Shown: piece after piece, positions 1-8,340 of the stretch
How positions within the stretch are numbered: the stretch's first letter is position 1
Layout: every line of letters begins with the position of its first letter
Origin: Candidatus Doudnabacteria bacterium RIFCSPHIGHO2_01_48_18
GTDB taxonomy: Bacteria; Patescibacteriota; Doudnabacteria; UBA920; 2-01-FULL-46-14
NCBI GenBank assembly: GCA_001777515.1
Contig: MFEF01000021.1
Span: forward strand, 1 to 32,730
DNA: 32,730 nt
Reading direction: 5' to 3'
Position numbers and translations under genes: made by a program
Notes under the pieces: model-generated
Database searches by the model: none
The model's input: only the letters and a program-made list of their open reading frames with translations
Told to the model about the DNA's origin: nothing

Positions 1-97
1 CGGAAAATTCCCCCCGCGAAAATTCGGAAAGGCGGCGGCCTGTACTGAGCGACTTGTCCTGAGTTAATCGAAGGAAGTCGAAGTGAGCCGCACCGCT
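1..97. repeat. Left arm of a perfect 97-bp inverted repeat (may extend beyond the window start)
   Basis: CGGAAAATTCCCCCCGCG...GTGAGCCGCACCGCT is the exact reverse complement of 864..960. Confidence 0.97.
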
Positions 98-176
98 CAA
101 AACCGCAAAAGAACTCGGAGAAAAACATCGGCTCGAACCATATTTTAATTTTGGGGGAAGAAAAATTTTTAATCAT

Positions 177-833
177 ATGAGTCAGAAAAATATTATCTTG
201 ATAATTGTGGTAGTTGTTATTATTGGTGGGATTAGTTATTTTGCTTTAGTTAAAAAACCGCAACCAATAGTTCAAGTTCAGCAATCGCCTAATCAAAACA
301 CACCCACGCCAACACCAGAAAATAAAATTGCAGCTTGGAAAACATATAAAAATCAGCAATTCGGATTTGAGTTTAAGTATCCGGAGACTTACGAAGTTGT
401 AGTTGAGACTAATCGTAGTTTGGGTCATGGATTATTTTTTGTTGGGCTTCGACCAAAGAGTTGGACTGACACAGAACAGTTCAAGTCCTATGATGAATCT
501 GCTACTCTATTAGGAATTTGGGTTGATGTCATGAGTTTCAACGAAGCCGCAACACAAGCTGGATTTGAGAAACAAAATGGTAATTGGGTTTTATTGGGTA
601 GACAAGGAATTCTCGGTGAAGCTAAAGAAATAACTGTACAAAAGTGGAAGGGATTATCAGGTATTACTTCGGTTGGTTCTTTTCAAAAAGGTGGTGGTTA
701 TGCTGGCCTTGAAGATAGTGGTCGAGCAATTATCAATCGGGATAATGATTTGTCTGCTTTCTTCGAAATGACACCTTTAATTTCAGAGGAAGTTTTTAAT
801 AATCTAATTTCGACCTTTAAATTTTTGAATTAA
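177..833 (+). CDS. Membrane-anchored/secreted protein with a PsbP-like 'FGFEFKYPETY' segment; sits inside the inverted repeat
   Basis: 218 aa ORF, N-terminal TM helix, Pro/Thr linker, then globular domain; visibly AT-richer than neighbours. Confidence 0.8.
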   Translation: MSQKNIILIIVVVVIIGGISYFALVKKPQPIVQVQQSPNQNTPTPTPENKIAAWKTYKNQQFGFEFKYPETYEVVVETNRSLGHGLFFVGLRPKSWTDTEQFKSYDESATLLGIWVDVMSFNEAATQAGFEKQNGNWVLLGRQGILGEAKEITVQKWKGLSGITSVGSFQKGGGYAGLEDSGRAIINRDNDLSAFFEMTPLISEEVFNNLISTFKFLN

Positions 834-863
834 TTTGCCGCCAAAGAAAAACTTGAAATTGTC

Positions 864-960
864 AGCGGTGCGGCTCACTTCGACTTCCTTCGATTAACTC
901 AGGACAAGTCGCTCAGTACAGGCCGCCGCCTTTCCGAATTTTCGCGGGGGGAATTTTCCG
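864..960. repeat. Right arm of the perfect 97-bp inverted repeat
   Basis: Exact reverse complement of 1..97. Confidence 0.97.
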
Positions 961-1012
961 GAAAAAATGCGTTCGGACTAATTCAAGAATACTGCATAGG
1001 TAACGGCAGAAT

Positions 1013-1792
1013 CTAGTTTCTCGCGACTACCAAGCCCCAGATTTCCGCGGGCGCAAATTGTTTTAAGGTCAGCGCGCATTCGTTAAGAGTTGCGCCCGTG
1101 GTAGCGACATCATCAATGAGAAGAATCTTCCGTCCTCTCAGTTTTTCCCCGTCGAACCGCGGGTCAACCGCAAACGTATTTTTTATATTCTCGAGGCGCG
1201 CATCGCGGGTAAGTTCAACCTGGCGCGTGGTATTTTTGGTTTTGGAAAGGAGCGCGGTCATTTCCATGCCCAGATTTTTTGCCAGCTGGCTGGCTATTTC
1301 CATGGATTGATTAAAACCGCGAAATCGGAACCTGCTCGCATGAATCGGAACAGCAACAACGATGCTTTGCGCGAAATAATCCACAAGGTCATTGTTTGCC
1401 AAAAAATCGGCCATGAGCAGCGCTAAAGTTTTACTGATATCTTTAACCGAGTTATATTTCAAATGCCAGATCAGATTGCGGACGGCAGGAGCGCGGTATT
1501 CTGCGGCAATCATGAGCCCGGTGAGTCCAATCTTTTTACTCTGGCATTCAGAATGAATTTGTCCAAGTGGAGAATTTTTACCGCATACCAGGCAGCGGTG
1601 GATCGGCGCCTCGATTAACGTTTGGCAAGCAAGACACAAATACCAACCTTCCCGGCCGCAACCTTGGCAAAAAACAGGGAAGATGAGATCAATGCCGCCA
1701 GAAATAACTCGCCCTAACGCTTTGAGCGCGTTAGTGCGCGCGAGATTTCTAACAGAGTCAAGCAATAACTCTGGAGGAAATTTTAACTTCAA
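1013..1792 (-). CDS. comF: ComF-like phosphoribosyltransferase
   Basis: Cys pairs (CQGC..CLAC, CLVCG) and PRTase motif 'ILLIDDVATTGATL'. Confidence 0.9.
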   Translation of the reverse strand: MKLKFPPELLLDSVRNLARTNALKALGRVISGGIDLIFPVFCQGCGREGWYLCLACQTLIEAPIHRCLVCGKNSPLGQIHSECQSKKIGLTGLMIAAEYRAPAVRNLIWHLKYNSVKDISKTLALLMADFLANNDLVDYFAQSIVVAVPIHASRFRFRGFNQSMEIASQLAKNLGMEMTALLSKTKNTTRQVELTRDARLENIKNTFAVDPRFDGEKLRGRKILLIDDVATTGATLNECALTLKQFAPAEIWGLVVARN

Positions 1793-4241
1793 GGGTTTTT
1801 TTGCCTCTCCGGGGCGATGAGGAAATAGTCAATTCAATAATTTGTCCTGATTTCAATTTGCCCGCGATAATCTTTTTGGCAATCAAATCCTCCACGAACT
1901 CCTGAATATTCTTGCGGATTTTTCTGGCTCCTTGCTCGGCATCGAAGCTTGTTTCGGCCAAATAAGTAAAAACGTTTTCCGACACAAGCAAATTTATGCC
2001 AAGCTCTCTGAGATGCAGTTTTAAATTTTCGAGCTCAAGCCTGGCAATCTTTTTTAAATCATCGGGTTTCAGCGGCTCGAACACGAGGATTTTATCAATG
2101 CGGTTGAGAAATTCAGTGCGGAAATGAGATTTTACCGCATCCATGACCGAGGCTGTGGCCTTTCGCATATCGAGCGCCGCTTTTTGGTTTTGGCCAAAGC
2201 CAAATTCTGCCGCAGCTTTGTTGAAAGCGCCAAGGCCGAGGTTCGAGGTCATAATGATGAGAGTATTGCGGAAATTGACGGTTTTGCCGGCAGCGTCCGT
2301 GAGTTGGCCTTCTTCGAGAATCTGCAGCAAAAGGTTGAACACATCAGTATGGGCTTTTTCAATTTCATCGAACAGTACGACCGAATAAGGTCTTCGGCGC
2401 ACAATTTCTGTGAGCCGGCCTCCTTCCTCAAACCCGACGTAGCCGGCCGGCGCGCCTATGAGCCTCGCGACATTGTGCCGTTCCATTAGTTCGGACATAT
2501 CAATCCGCACCAAGGCTTTTTCGCTCCCGAATAGCTCTTTGGCCAGAAGCTTGGCCAGCAGAGTTTTTCCCACGCCGGAAGGGCCTAGAAACATGAAAGA
2601 ACCGAATGGCCGCACCGCAGCAGAGATTCCTGCGCGAGATCGCCTGATGGCGGAGGCGATTTCGGCGAGGGCCGCGTCTTGGCCGACGATTTTCGTTTTC
2701 ATTTTCTTTTCCAGATTTATGAGCTGCGCCCGATCTTTCTTGAGCAGAGTACTTACGGGTATGCCGGTTATGCGCGCGACTGAAGCGGCGATGTGCGGCC
2801 CCGTGATCTCCAGGGTCCCTGTAGAGGGGAGCTTTTTTTTACCCAGATCGTCCTGATACTTCATGAGCAAGCCCTCTTGGCTGCGGATAGCAGCCGCCTG
2901 CTCAAAGTTGCGATTCAAGACAGCCTGTTTTTTCTTGGAGCCAAGCTCTGCGAGGTCCTGTTCAATGTTCATTCTCACAGGGCTGGGATGTTTTTGATCA
3001 TGAAGCATTTTGTGATAGGCCGCTGTTTCGTCAACAAGATCGATGGCTTTATCGGGCAGAAAGCGATCAGTAATATAGCGGACCGAAAGTTTTACCGCTT
3101 CATTCAGAGCGTCATCGGAAATTTTTACCTCATGGTGGCGTTCATAATGCGGGCGGAGTCCTTTCAGGATTTCGAGGGTTTCTGTGTGGTCTGGTTCCCT
3201 GACGTGAATAGGCTGGAACCGTCGCTCTAGGGCAGGGTCTGATTCGATGTGTTTTTTGTATTCCCCAAAAGTCGTCGCGCCGATCGCTCTGATTTCTCCG
3301 CGAGCCAGGGCCGGCTTTAGGATATTTGCCGCATCAAGGCTGCCAGCCGTCGCGCCCGCACCCACCAGAGTGTGAAGCTCATCAATAAACAAAATGACGT
3401 CGCCGGCATCTTTTATTTCTTCAAGGACCTGTTTGAGCCGGTTTTCAAATTCACCGCGAAACATGCTACCCGCGACCATGAGCGCGAGATCGAGGGCAAG
3501 GATCCTTTTGCCGGCGAGGCTACGCGAGACTTTTTTTTCCCGGATAGCCAAAGCAAGTCCTTCCACAATCGCTGTTTTGCCGACGCCCGGTTCGCCAATC
3601 AGAACCGGATTGTTTTTATGCCTGCGGTTCAAAATACTGATGAGCCGCTCGACTTCATCTTTGCGGCCAATGAGCGGATCAATCTGACCGTTTTTGGCCC
3701 TGGCTGTCAGGTCAGCGGTGAAAAAATTTAATGCTCCAGCCCCTGCATTCATCTCTTCCTGGATTTTCGGCGATTCGCGGACGATTGGTTCGGGGAATTT
3801 GGAAACGTTTTCAAAAATTGACAGCAAGTTCTTTTTTATTTCAGCCGGAGAGATTTTCAGGGTGCTGAGAATCTGCTGTGCCTCGTTTGGTTCGCTATCC
3901 ACGATGCCATACAAAAAATGCTCCGTGCCAATGAACTGATACTGATATTTGGAAGCGATGATGGCGGCTTTTTCCAGGCAGGCTTTTAGTTCGGGTGAAA
4001 TTTTGGCCAGAGGAATAAGCGTTTGCTTGCGCCGCCTAGCGAGCTCCAGCCTCAGGACTTCTTCGTTGATTTTGTTTTTCAATATCACTTCTGAAGCAAA
4101 CGAGCTGAACTCTGAAACTATGCCGAACAAAAGGTGCTCGGTTCCAGTGTAGTTGTATTCCAGTTCGCGGGCAATATTTTGCGCGGTTTTTAGCGCGTTC
4201 TTGGCGCGGCTCGAGAATTTGTCGTTTATAAAGTCGATCAC
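1758..4241 (-). CDS. clpC: ATP-dependent Clp protease ATP-binding subunit ClpC
   Basis: Clp_N repeats (TEHLLFGIV), two Walker A ([16 protein letters not shown]), UVR-like middle region; GTG start. Confidence 0.95.
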
Positions 4242-4314
4242 CCCATTAGAAATCCTGTATTAATCATTAACCCATTGTCCCGCCATCCTGTTAAAACCGG
4301 GATTTCTAACGGGG
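4241..4314. promoter_or_regulatory. Inverted repeat overlapping the clpC GTG start (14/15 bp arms)
   Basis: CCCCATTAGAAATCC (4241-4255) vs GGATTTCTAACGGGG (4300-4314); clpC start codon is the complement of 4239-4241. Confidence 0.7.
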
Positions 4315-4400
4315 CAAGTGTTATTATTATACTATGAACCCCGTTTGAAATGTCTAGTGGGATGATCGGGGAGCGTATTTAACTATTTATTTCTAACTGG

Positions 4401-4937
4401 GTGAATGAGAAGGTTTACGAAAAAGCCATACGATTTTTATCGATGCGCCTGCATACGACTGGCGAACTCCACCAAAAGCTCCGCCGGAAAGGTTTCGACG
4501 ACGAAGTCATTATTCCCGTGCTCAAACGGCTTGAGGAGCTCGATTTTTTAAATGATCAGCGCTTCGCGGAGATTTTTATCGATAACCTGAAACGGTTCAA
4601 AGATTGGGGTTATTTTGGGATTCGTTCCAAACTCGCGGCTCGCCAGATCCCGCATCAGCTGGCCGTGAAAGCCATGGCGGAGTTTTTCACGGCAGCCGAC
4701 GAGCTTGCCGTGGCAAAAAAATTATTTTCGAAAATAAATCCAGCACCTTCCTGTCGGGGTATTGCACCCCGCAGGAAGGCTATATTGAGCCATTCATCCC
4801 CGCAGCAAGCTGCGGGGTATTCTGGAAGGTGCTGGATAAAAAAACGCCCGGTAACGCGTGAAAAATTGCTGCGGGCTTTTTCTTCGAGGGGTTTTAGAAC
4901 TGAGGTTATCCGAGAGATTTTGCGCGAGGAAACCTAG
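4401..4937 (+). CDS. recX: RecX-family regulatory protein with a palindrome-encoded insert
   Basis: RecX-like repeats 'LHTTGELHQKLRRKGFDDEVIIPVLKRLEELDFLNDQRFAE' and C-terminal 'KLLRAFSSRGFRTEVIREILRE'. Confidence 0.85.
   Translation: MNEKVYEKAIRFLSMRLHTTGELHQKLRRKGFDDEVIIPVLKRLEELDFLNDQRFAEIFIDNLKRFKDWGYFGIRSKLAARQIPHQLAVKAMAEFFTAADELAVAKKLFSKINPAPSCRGIAPRRKAILSHSSPQQAAGYSGRCWIKKRPVTREKLLRAFSSRGFRTEVIREILREET
4738..4837. repeat. 100-bp compound palindromic element inside the recX reading frame
   Basis: ATCCAGCACCTTCC / GGAAGGTGCTGGAT outer arms with two inner hairpins, including CCCCGCAGCAAGCTGCGGGG. Confidence 0.9.
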
Positions 4938-5839
4938 CCACCCATGCTGCGCAATCGGCGGATCCTTTCGGCAGCTGGCGGGTGAGTGTTGAACAAGCCC
5001 GCGAACCAGCCGATAGAGTCGTGATGATTTTTCAGGGGATTGGCAATGTAGAGGTGGGCTGTGGCTTTGTTCGCTGCTTCGAGGGGTTCAGTGTCTCCGG
5101 AGATTTTTTCCAACGCTGAAGCAAGGCCCTCAGGGTAGCGCGTTAGCAGTGTCCCGGAAGCATCAGCAAGGTATTCGCGCTTGCGAGATATTGCGAGCTG
5201 GATCAGGGTGGCAATAACAGGGGAGAGAATAGCAAGAACTATGCCGAGCGCCATGAACAGCAGTTGCGCTTGGCCGCCGTTGCGCGACCGCCCAAAGCGA
5301 ACCCGAAGACCAACCCGAAGAAAAAAATCCGCAAGCAAAGTCAAGACTCCGACGAGAATTACCACCATAGTCATCAGGCGGATATCATAGTTGCCGATGT
5401 GAGAAAGTTCATGGGCTACAACCCCTTCAATCTCGGTTCGATTCAATCGCTGGAGGATGCCGGTCGTAAACACCACGACCGCGTTCTCCGGATTCCTTCC
5501 GGTGGCGAACGCGTTCATGGCCGTATCCTCGATTATATAAATTTTTGGCGTTGGAAGACCGGCGGTGATTGCCAGATTTTCTACAAGATTGTAAAGATAT
5601 GGATTCGCAGCTCTGTCCACTAGTTTTGCTCCGGATAGGGAAAGAGTTATGTTTGCGCTGAAATAGTAGCTCACGAGAGCATAAATTACGCTGAAGGCTA
5701 CCGCTGCATAAAGGATCTCAAGCGCGCCATAGGCCCTGCTGAACACAAATCCCAGGACAGAAATCAGGACCAAAAACGCGCCCAGGAGCAGCGCGGTTTT
5801 GATTTTGTTTCCGGTGATGTGTTCGTAAACAATCGCCAT
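4934..5839 (-). CDS. htpX: HtpX-like membrane metalloprotease (M48)
   Basis: HEXXH in 'VAHELSHIGNYDIRL', TM helices, 'SRKREYLADASG'. Confidence 0.93.
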   Translation of the reverse strand: MAIVYEHITGNKIKTALLLGAFLVLISVLGFVFSRAYGALEILYAAVAFSVIYALVSYYFSANITLSLSGAKLVDRAANPYLYNLVENLAITAGLPTPKIYIIEDTAMNAFATGRNPENAVVVFTTGILQRLNRTEIEGVVAHELSHIGNYDIRLMTMVVILVGVLTLLADFFLRVGLRVRFGRSRNGGQAQLLFMALGIVLAILSPVIATLIQLAISRKREYLADASGTLLTRYPEGLASALEKISGDTEPLEAANKATAHLYIANPLKNHHDSIGWFAGLFNTHPPAAERIRRLRSMGG

Positions 5840-6396
5840 TAGAATTCGACCTTAACCGGTTGTCCTTCCGCGCCTTTTTCGTCGATATCGAAAAATTCGT
5901 TCGGCTCAAATTTTAGCATCGAGGCGATCATATTGGTAGGGAAGACCTGAAGCTTGGTGTTGAAATCTCGAACATTGCCGTTATAGAAGCGGCGCGCAGC
6001 CTGGATTTTGTTTTCCGTGTCAGTCAAATCATTTTGCAGGCTCAGGAAATTTTGATTGGCTTTCAGATCCGGATAGGCCTCGGCGACCGCGAACAAGGAT
6101 TTCAGCGCGCCGGTTAGCATGTTTTCTTTTGCCAATTTGTCATGTGGATTGGTCGCTCCCATTGCCGCAGACCGCGCTTGGGTGACTTTGTCGAAGACTT
6201 GATTTTCGTGAGCAGCATAGCCTTTGACTGCGCTGACCAGGTTAGGGATGAGATCATATCTTCGTTTCAACTGCACCTCGATATCGCTCCAGGCTTCCTG
6301 GACGCGATTTCGCGAGCGAATTAGGCCGTTGTAAGTGGCGATTAGCCATAGCGCCACGGCGGCTAACGCTATCAAAATAATGGTGGTTGCTGTCAT
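5839..6396 (-). CDS. lemA: LemA family protein
   Basis: 'YNGLIRSRNRVQEAWSDIEVQLKRRYDLIPNLVSAVKGYAAHE'; adjacent to htpX. Confidence 0.95.
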   Translation of the reverse strand: MTATTIILIALAAVALWLIATYNGLIRSRNRVQEAWSDIEVQLKRRYDLIPNLVSAVKGYAAHENQVFDKVTQARSAAMGATNPHDKLAKENMLTGALKSLFAVAEAYPDLKANQNFLSLQNDLTDTENKIQAARRFYNGNVRDFNTKLQVFPTNMIASMLKFEPNEFFDIDEKGAEGQPVKVEF

Positions 6397-6465
6397 GTTT
6401 TGGGTCCTTTTTTAATGCTTGTGGTCCTTAATGCTTTAAGTTTATACTATTAGCTAGGAGTGTCA

Positions 6466-6570
6466 ATTTACCCACCAAAATTTCTGGTGGAGTTAGAAAC
6501 AGGCCGGTATTATTATTTCTGAGGTTATTCATGAGTAAAATAATTAAACAAGAAATTTAGGTGGGTAAAT
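6466..6570 (+). promoter_or_regulatory. gatC leader: 20-nt inverted repeat (19/20) sequestering RBS/start, plus a competing local hairpin
   Basis: ATTTACCCACCAAAATTTCT (6466-6485) vs AGAAATTTAGGTGGGTAAAT (6551-6570); CCACC..GGTGG alternative at 6472-6490. Confidence 0.7.
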
Positions 6571-6850
6571 GATAAAAAAAGAAGAAGTCGCTTATATCGC
6601 CAAGCTGGCCAGAATCGAACTCACGGATGAGGATCTGGTCAAATACCGCACAGATTTAAACAAGATCTTGGGATACATCGAGGTACTCAAAACCGTTGAC
6701 ACGGAAGGAGTAGAGCCCCTCGCCCAGGTTACTGGACTCGAAAATGTGTATCGCGCCGACGAGGTAAACACAGCCGATATCGCAGACGAGCTATTGTCTA
6801 GCGCGCCAGAGACATCCGGACGTTTTATCAAGGTCAAGAAAGTCCTCTGA
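6569..6850 (+). CDS. gatC: Asp/Glu-tRNA(Asn/Gln) amidotransferase subunit C
   Basis: 'YIAKLARIELTDEDLVKYRTDLNKILGYIEVLKTVDTEGVEPLAQV'. Confidence 0.96.
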   Translation: MIKKEEVAYIAKLARIELTDEDLVKYRTDLNKILGYIEVLKTVDTEGVEPLAQVTGLENVYRADEVNTADIADELLSSAPETSGRFIKVKKVL

Positions 6851-6852
6851 AT

Positions 6853-8340
6853 ATGGATTTAAGTTTCGCGACTATCACCGAGCTTCGATCCGGACTCGAT
6901 AAGAAAAAATTTTCCGCGGTGGAATTGGCGCGGCATTTTTTGGATCGTATAAAAAATCATGACAAAAAACTGAACGCTTTTATTACTGTAACCGAGGAAG
7001 CTGCGCTCGAGCAGGCAAAGCGCGCTGACAAATCTATTGCTGATGAAAAACAAACTCTGCTGACAGGTATTCCGTACGCGGCCAAAGATTTATTTGTCAC
7101 CAAGGGCATAAAAACCACGGCCGCTTCAAAAATTTTGGAAAACTATGTGCCGCCGTTCGACAGTACTGTAGTCTCGAAGCTGCAGAAATCCGGGGCTGTG
7201 CTGCTCGGCAAAACCAACCTAGACCAATTCGCGCATGGTTCATCCACGGAAACTTCATACTATGGTCCGTCCCGTAATCCCTGGGATTTGGACAGAATTC
7301 CGGGCGGTTCGTCCGGCGGCAGCGCCGCAGCCGTGGCGGCCGGCCTCGCGCCTTTGGCTTTGGCCACGGAAACTGGAGGATCGATTCGACAGCCAGCGAG
7401 CCTTTGCGGCATTTCTGGCTGGAAGCCAACTTATGGCCAGGTCTCAAGGTACGGAGTCATTGCCATGTCTTCGTCGATGGATAGCATGGGCACCGTCGCG
7501 AGGACCGTGGAGGATCTGGCGATGAGCGCCGAAATCATCGCGGGTATAGATCCCAAGGATGCCACCTCTGCTAAAGCGCGTACTCATGAATGGTCGCAGA
7601 TGCTGGATCGTGATCTGAAGCGACTGCGAATTGGCGTACCGCAGGAATATTTTGTTCCCGGAATTGAAAAGGATGTAGAAACCAGCGTACGGCAGGCAGT
7701 CGAAGATTTGAAAACACTCGGACCGGAAATAATCGAAGTTTCGCTTCCTTTCAGCGCCTATGGCTCAATGGTTTACGCCATTGTCACTTCATCAGAGGTC
7801 AGCTCAAACCTTTCGCGTTATGACGGTATTCGCTACGGACACGTAACATCTGAGGCAAATAATATTTTTGAGGTCTACGCGAAATCCCGCGCTGAGGGTT
7901 TCGGGCCGGAAGCAAAGCGCCGGGTCATGACTGGCACATACGCGCTATCTGCCGGCTACCGCGAGGCATATTACCTCAAGGCACAGAAGGTGCGGCGTTT
8001 GATTGTAAATGAGTTCAACGAAGTTTTTAAAAAAGTAGATATTTTGCTTTGCCCGTCGACTCCCAACTTTGCTCCAAAAATCGGCACCGCTGCCGACAAT
8101 CCCTTGTTTGGTTACATTTCAGACCAGCTCAACATCCCCGGTTCTCTGGCTGGTTTGCCTGCGCTTAGCGTGCCGTGCGGCTTCGGTAAACCGAAAAAAG
8201 AAAAAAACAAAGCGGAGCTGCCGGTGGGATTGCAGATCATCGGGCCGCAGTGGGGAGAGGGTCTTGTTTTTCAGGTCGGACACGCTTATCAAAAAATCAC
8301 TGCCTGGCACAATGCCAAGCCGAAAGCATTTACTATCTAG
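6853..8340 (+). CDS. gatA: Asp/Glu-tRNA(Asn/Gln) amidotransferase subunit A
   Basis: Amidase signature 'GSSGGSAAAVAAGLAPLALATETGGSIRQPAS'. Confidence 0.98.
   Translation: MDLSFATITELRSGLDKKKFSAVELARHFLDRIKNHDKKLNAFITVTEEAALEQAKRADKSIADEKQTLLTGIPYAAKDLFVTKGIKTTAASKILENYVPPFDSTVVSKLQKSGAVLLGKTNLDQFAHGSSTETSYYGPSRNPWDLDRIPGGSSGGSAAAVAAGLAPLALATETGGSIRQPASLCGISGWKPTYGQVSRYGVIAMSSSMDSMGTVARTVEDLAMSAEIIAGIDPKDATSAKARTHEWSQMLDRDLKRLRIGVPQEYFVPGIEKDVETSVRQAVEDLKTLGPEIIEVSLPFSAYGSMVYAIVTSSEVSSNLSRYDGIRYGHVTSEANNIFEVYAKSRAEGFGPEAKRRVMTGTYALSAGYREAYYLKAQKVRRLIVNEFNEVFKKVDILLCPSTPNFAPKIGTAADNPLFGYISDQLNIPGSLAGLPALSVPCGFGKPKKEKNKAELPVGLQIIGPQWGEGLVFQVGHAYQKITAWHNAKPKAFTI

Follow-up and report, generated by a model that had tools for sequence, protein, structure and literature searches.

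Integrons carry gene cassettes that resemble the locus described here in being single-gene units with open-ended cargo that form head-to-tail arrays, although only a single unit is visible in the window – the whole stretch of 32,730 bp of DNA that was analyzed – and the array feature comes from another locus, L025. Integrons employ the tyrosine integrase IntI and attC sites, whereas the enzyme associated with the present cassettes is a large serine recombinase; moreover, the ends of these units consist of recombinase-gene fragments plus a mimic of a tRNA 3' end, each unit carries a leader of its own, and the units are scattered at tRNA genes. Inspection by eye of 26 aligned ends revealed no conserved pair of the attC type (R'' RYYYAAC and R' GTTRRRY).

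Large serine recombinases are known from transposons and integrases of the Tn4451 (TnpX), Tn5397 (TndX) and phiC31 type, and their domain order – Resolvase, Recombinase, Zn ribbon – is the one seen here. In such elements attP and attB recombine through a 2-bp core to yield attL and attR; here the junctions between the outer ends that we designate E2 and E1 look like attP, and appear compatible with crossover near GCAC. In contrast to those elements, the autonomous form of the present family is only ~1.6 kb long, its inverted ends of ~100 bp reach into the recombinase frame, it is associated with tRNA 3' ends generically, and it has non-autonomous single-gene derivatives. Targeting of tRNA genes and variable cargo are shared with tycheposons and other tRNA-integrating islands, but these use tyrosine recombinases and carry many genes, whereas the units here are single genes with a tRNA-end mimic next to which a further element can be located. 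Integrases of the SSV type, which are tyrosine enzymes, have their gene split on integration, and as in the present locus recombinase pieces flank the inserted DNA with the C-terminal part on the left and the N-terminal part on the right; the enzyme here is a serine recombinase, and the pieces are short and contain a conserved internal deletion (the junction of fragments 1b and F3). Finally, MITEs and IS-derived passenger elements are likewise non-autonomous derivatives that share ends with an autonomous element, but the present cassettes differ from MITEs in their precisely placed foreign gene, their tRNA 3' end target and the family of the enzyme. The segment at the left end of the window is probably (at a probability of about 0.7) a non-autonomous, type A mobile gene cassette belonging to a family of large-serine-recombinase elements, a reading drawn from comparison of sequences.

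A single gene between perfect inverted repeats

The window comprises contig C21 of the source assembly G000 (919 kb in 33 contigs) in its entirety, and its left arm is consequently cut at base 1 by the contig end. Positions 1-97 and 864-960 are exact reverse complements, with pairing that extends to 102 nt at 98% identity, and they enclose one ORF; the GC content is 0.36 inside the arms and 0.48 for the contig as a whole. The first-pass annotation, which described perfect 97-bp inverted repeats around one AT-rich ORF and smaller REP-like palindromes within the arms, is confirmed on both counts. The features of the segment and its flank are as follows.

1-97, minus strand: left arm, the reverse complement of end E2; a perfect mirror of 864-960, cut at contig base 1
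99-120, plus strand: recombinase fragment 1b, with TAKEPG-like codons (AAAACCGCAAAAGAACTCGGAG); matches the recombinase gene just after F1
121-146, plus strand: recombinase fragment F3, with IGSNHIL codons from near the C-terminus; ACATCGGCTCGAACCATATTTT is identical or nearly so in intact recombinases
149-176, plus strand: leader LD with the Shine-Dalgarno-like GGGGGAAG; conserved before cargo ATGs and recombinase ATGs
177-833, plus strand: cargo ORF of 218 aa; membrane-type segment at the N-terminus, weak match to PsbP_2
834-863, plus strand: recombinase fragment F1, with FAAKEKLEIV codons; matches intact recombinases and other cassette ends
864-960, plus strand: X, the right arm belonging to end E2; contains GC-rich segments that form hairpins
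877-922, no strand assigned: REP-like palindrome inserted in the arm; a gap in alignments to L023, L029 and L030
971-998, plus strand: F2, the tRNA-3'-end mimic (GTTCGGACTAATTCAAGAATACTGCA) that forms the outer boundary of E2 and is followed by genome sequence
1013-1792, minus strand: comF (phosphoribosyltransferase with a double zinc ribbon, from Pfam); host flank, not cargo

The limits first given for the arms are correct for the exact pairing, but the conserved element runs on past 960 to about 998 on the right side, which makes it likely that the full arm exceeds 97 bp. The REP-like palindrome is mirrored in both arms of the window and is missing from most homologous arms, and in L143 and L027 the insertion is limited to one arm. 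When an arm was searched against all contigs of the source assembly no third copy was found, but homologous arms are present in many other genomes; a search of plasmid and phage record collections with one arm gave no match. As single-stranded DNA the arm folds no better than its shuffles (z = -0.08), and its palindromes are short local features. An Rfam search of five loci returned tRNAs and one weak sub-threshold match, and nothing else.

The inner ends are pieces of a recombinase gene

When 60 relatives were searched, the inner ends gave short hits at numerous positions and with varied spacing, and reading of the related loci identified these ends as fragments of a large serine recombinase gene. 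The junction between 1b and F3 is shared by many cassettes, F1 begins directly behind the cargo stop codon, and the LD sequence ahead of the cargo ATG is the recombinase gene's own 5' leader. An intact recombinase, of 502 aa, is encoded in L024 (genome G041) and contains Resolvase, Recombinase and Zn-ribbon domains (PF00239, PF07508 and PF13408, all above cut-off). The first-pass statement that there is no transposase thus holds within the element, but the ends derive from a specific family of large serine recombinases. Members of this family occur in 36 of 61 relatives, although the looser matches represent other subfamilies. The closest copies in the source genome are partial or interrupted by a stop.

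Synonymous codon conservation among 17 recombinases is 0.93 for F1, 0.75-0.82 for F3 and up to 0.76 for the terminal region against an average of 0.57, a pattern consistent with cis-acting DNA within the coding sequence; a few other stretches of the recombinase also attain 0.74-0.80, and the apparent conservation of F1 at the DNA level is biased because the F1 word was the search key for both the locus collection and the phylum scan.

Cassette architecture

Three arrangements recur among the related loci. The autonomous form consists of E1, leader, recombinase and inverted E1, within ~1.6 kb, and its ~100-bp inverted ends extend into the 3' coding region of the recombinase. Type B cassettes have the order E1, leader, gene, F1, X and F2, and type A cassettes, as in the window, the order inverted E2, 1b, F3, leader, gene, F1, X and F2. 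The leader, F1, 1b and F3 are common to cassettes and recombinase genes, and E1 is common to type B cassettes and autonomous copies, whereas the outer arm E2 of the type A cassettes is not part of the autonomous copies. Inverted arms of 24-130 bp and 80-100% identity surround other genes in 18 further loci, in 12 of which the arms measure at least 84 bp (84-130 bp).

Intervals from leader to F1, 41 in all, are mostly 480-1150 bp long; many have a start codon just after the leader and a stop codon just before F1, and some contain two genes. Left-end words lie within 1.5 kb upstream of F1 at 29 of 54 sites, compared with 6 of 54 downstream, and at the other 25 no left end is recognised within 1.5 kb. 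Cassettes lie next to recombinase genes, or to what is left of them, in L080, L084, L104, L107, L149 and L164. In L025, from Doudnabacteria, units stand head to tail, each gene having F1-type and F2 words behind it and, after these, the F3 of the next unit.

Association with tRNA 3' ends and equivalents of empty sites

The F2 sequence, GTTCGGACTAATTCAAGAATACTGCA(C), resembles by eye the segment of a tRNA from the T-loop to CCA. It was dropped as a third recombinase fragment because the DNA of intact recombinases has no match to it. In 96 aligned F2 ends, conservation continues up to GCAC, after which the sequence is variable or runs into an E1 end; the F2 of the window ends in TGCA followed by TAGG, in place of GCACCA. 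E1 ends follow a tRNA gene or an F2 mimic in 40 of 48 instances: 24 come after tRNA genes of eight isotypes, 17 of them at exactly 25 nt, and 16 after F2, 14 of them at exactly 27 nt. Most of the remaining eight are preceded by what by eye is a tRNA-like ending. This placement of E1, together with the variable or E1 sequence beyond F2, suggests att half-sites, with a tRNA end or F2 on one side and E1 on the other.

We note that near 5700-5740 at the right end of L104 and near 2010-2070 in L093, E1 follows GGTTCGA(A/G)CTTGGTACAATAAATACACCA, a tRNA-like sequence that is uncalled by ARAGORN and may be either a degenerate tRNA or a mimic of a second type. Another possible tRNA-end mimic is GGTTCGCGCATTTTCAAACAAAGGGCACCA, which precedes the E1 ends of L030 and L078 on the minus strand.

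Empty sites, which the first-pass annotation proposed to look for, have equivalents in two relatives of the source genome. The F2 end of the window is no more than about 20 bp from the stop codon of comF, and the side on which the tRNA would be expected is the one where the contig ends; in G001 (same genus) and G002 (same family) a tRNA-Arg(GCG) gene directly follows comF with no element words, the gap between them containing neither cassette gene nor repeat. Of the two, only G001 has the tRNA in the orientation that the model needs, pointing towards comF; in G002 it points away from comF. When used as a query, the G001 tRNA was found in G001 and G002, and in the source's own assembly matched only partially, over 33 nt; its absence there is what a location in the gap to the left of base 1 would predict. 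A search for a DUF5667-like neighbour, intended to locate the missing left flank, found nothing, and a test of synteny based on the sigma-factor gene next to L029 returned paralogues only.

Cargo genes

The product of the window gene matches PsbP_2 (PF18933) with an E value of 6.4e-5, below the curated cut-off. Elsewhere the same ends surround diverse genes in many genomes, which answers the first-pass question of whether other copies flank different cargo: the 69 proteins that end beside F1 represent 55 Pfam families, most of them seen once, and some of the genes concerned may belong to the host instead of being cargo, given the 25 F1 sites without a recognised left end. The families include sodium/calcium exchangers, methyltransferases, SET, RDD, HNH, YdjM and PRA isomerase, and by a crude hydropathy scan 36 of 68 cargo proteins have a membrane segment at the N-terminus. 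The proposal that the segment is a non-autonomous mobile cassette with a gene for a surface or secreted protein is well supported by the shared ends, the empty-site equivalent, the membrane-type N-terminus and the weak PsbP_2 match.

Ten cargo proteins (in L027, L053, L054, L086, L096, L104, L114, L130, L160 and L025) have an N-terminal segment like MNQKGFANIVLIVLVVILAGAVGYF and differ towards the C-terminus, a pattern that looks like reuse of one membrane anchor. In the array of L025 (positions 1-8050; Doudnabacteria nzgw380), a larger block between two sites contains an AlbA/schlafen-like ORF and ORFs that resemble by eye parts of DNA methylases, and is possibly a defence island inside the array.

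Alternative explanations

Membership of the window segment in a recombinase-derived mobile family is well supported by its modular anatomy, the recurrence of the ends with different cargo, the precise distance that separates them from tRNA genes or F2, and the empty-site equivalents, and it is against these observations that other readings have to be weighed. The arm might be a MITE-like short repeat of recombinase remnants that inserts downstream of genes, in which case the host genes between such repeats would be immobile. This would account for the many F1 sites at which no left end is recognised, and for short cargo-free copies (F1, hairpin, 1b, F3 and leader) in L063 and L157 (at 4001), but where a left end is present the start and stop codons usually fit tightly between leader and F1, the genes of the 18 other loci are flanked by inverted arms on both sides, and the comF-tRNA gap of G001 and G002 is free of gene and repeat alike; we consider it unlikely. 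We regard as extremely improbable an artefact of assembly or amplification, in which a chimeric join at the contig end created the inverted repeat. Several other such elements do lie at contig ends, and the contig-boundary explanation raised at first pass accounts for an arm that begins at base 1, but not for the repeat itself: the arms carry words conserved across genomes, and the same arrangement occurs away from contig ends in independent assemblies (L084, L104, L125, L142, L160 and L164 among them), so that contig ends are excluded as a general source of the repeats.

An invertible, phase-variable segment, flipped at the inverted arms by a serine recombinase, was also raised in the first-pass annotation, and both the near-perfect arms around a single gene and the presence of serine recombinases in the family are in its favor. 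It is not supported by the cassettes compared, in which the order and direction of leader, gene and F1 are constant and the opposite orientation relative to 1b/F3 and F1 does not occur; as the leader is inside the segment, inversion would carry it along, and such switching seems very unlikely. A further possibility is a variant of the mobile-cassette reading rather than an exclusive alternative, namely that the family was once mobile and the copy in the window is now a fixed leftover. The defective state of the closest recombinase copies in the source genome and the altered end of the window F2 are in keeping with such a relic, but the window arms are 100% identical over 97 bp, the inserted REP included, unlike those of L143 and L027, and this implies recent duplication or conversion. 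Relic status is rather doubtful, albeit with an appreciable chance of being correct.

A model for cassette movement and its distribution

Under the mobile-cassette reading, a large serine recombinase that targets tRNA ends would act in trans on circular cassettes, using the tRNA 3' end (or F2) and E1 as two kinds of att half-site, with crossover near GCAC and preservation of the tRNA upon insertion. Cassettes retain the leader, have an unrelated gene where the recombinase reading frame would start, and close with fragment F1 and an arm finishing in the mimic F2. We infer present-day mobility, the circular intermediate and the capture step from the arrangement of the loci; our guess is that genes might enter between leader and F1 by illegitimate joining, with selection then favoring those that are read from the recombinase leader.

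An exact-pattern scan of GTDB genomes yielded at least 119 stretches, mostly in Patescibacteria with a few in other phyla, for example on a 2.1-Mb contig of Zixibacteria RBG-1 (L117); part of the matches are recombinase genes and the rest non-coding cassette ends. The F1 word, with up to 3 mismatches allowed, occurs in 31 of 382 evenly sampled genomes of the phylum, and the reversed control in none. The window gene apparently belongs to a widespread, undescribed Patescibacteria/CPR family of mobile single-gene cassettes, of which we found no description in the open-licence literature searched. More tentatively, and at slightly less than even odds, these cassettes may constitute a Patescibacteria-wide system of gene capture and exchange that extends to other phyla too, in which single-gene cassettes are passed from one tRNA 3' end to another by large serine recombinases, and the mimic present in every cassette serves as a landing site at which arrays grow, a serine-recombinase counterpart of integrons. 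If true, the mimic would represent a new route to gene arrays that dispenses with a tyrosine integrase.

Patescibacteria have tiny genomes and their gene acquisition is poorly known, and defined cassette ends provide a searchable signature for recently acquired genes across thousands of genomes, one that would take in many exported proteins that may act on hosts. The family also offers a concrete pair of recombinase and att site for work in vitro.

Two minor observations concern the arms and F1. A second arm subfamily, of the GTCCTTTCCGCTCCGG or GTCCAATCCGAAAGGG type, is present in L066, L076, L082, L117 and L131, records labelled as non-Patescibacteria; these labels could reflect errors of binning, the 2.1-Mb Zixibacteria contig being the least suspect. 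Palindromic inserts of ~60 bp, of the TCAGTGAATTTTTCAAT..ATTGAAAAATTCACTGA type, lie inside F1 in L025 (837-931), L036 (3770-3830) and L037 (4376-4470), and are probably a separate small mobile repeat.
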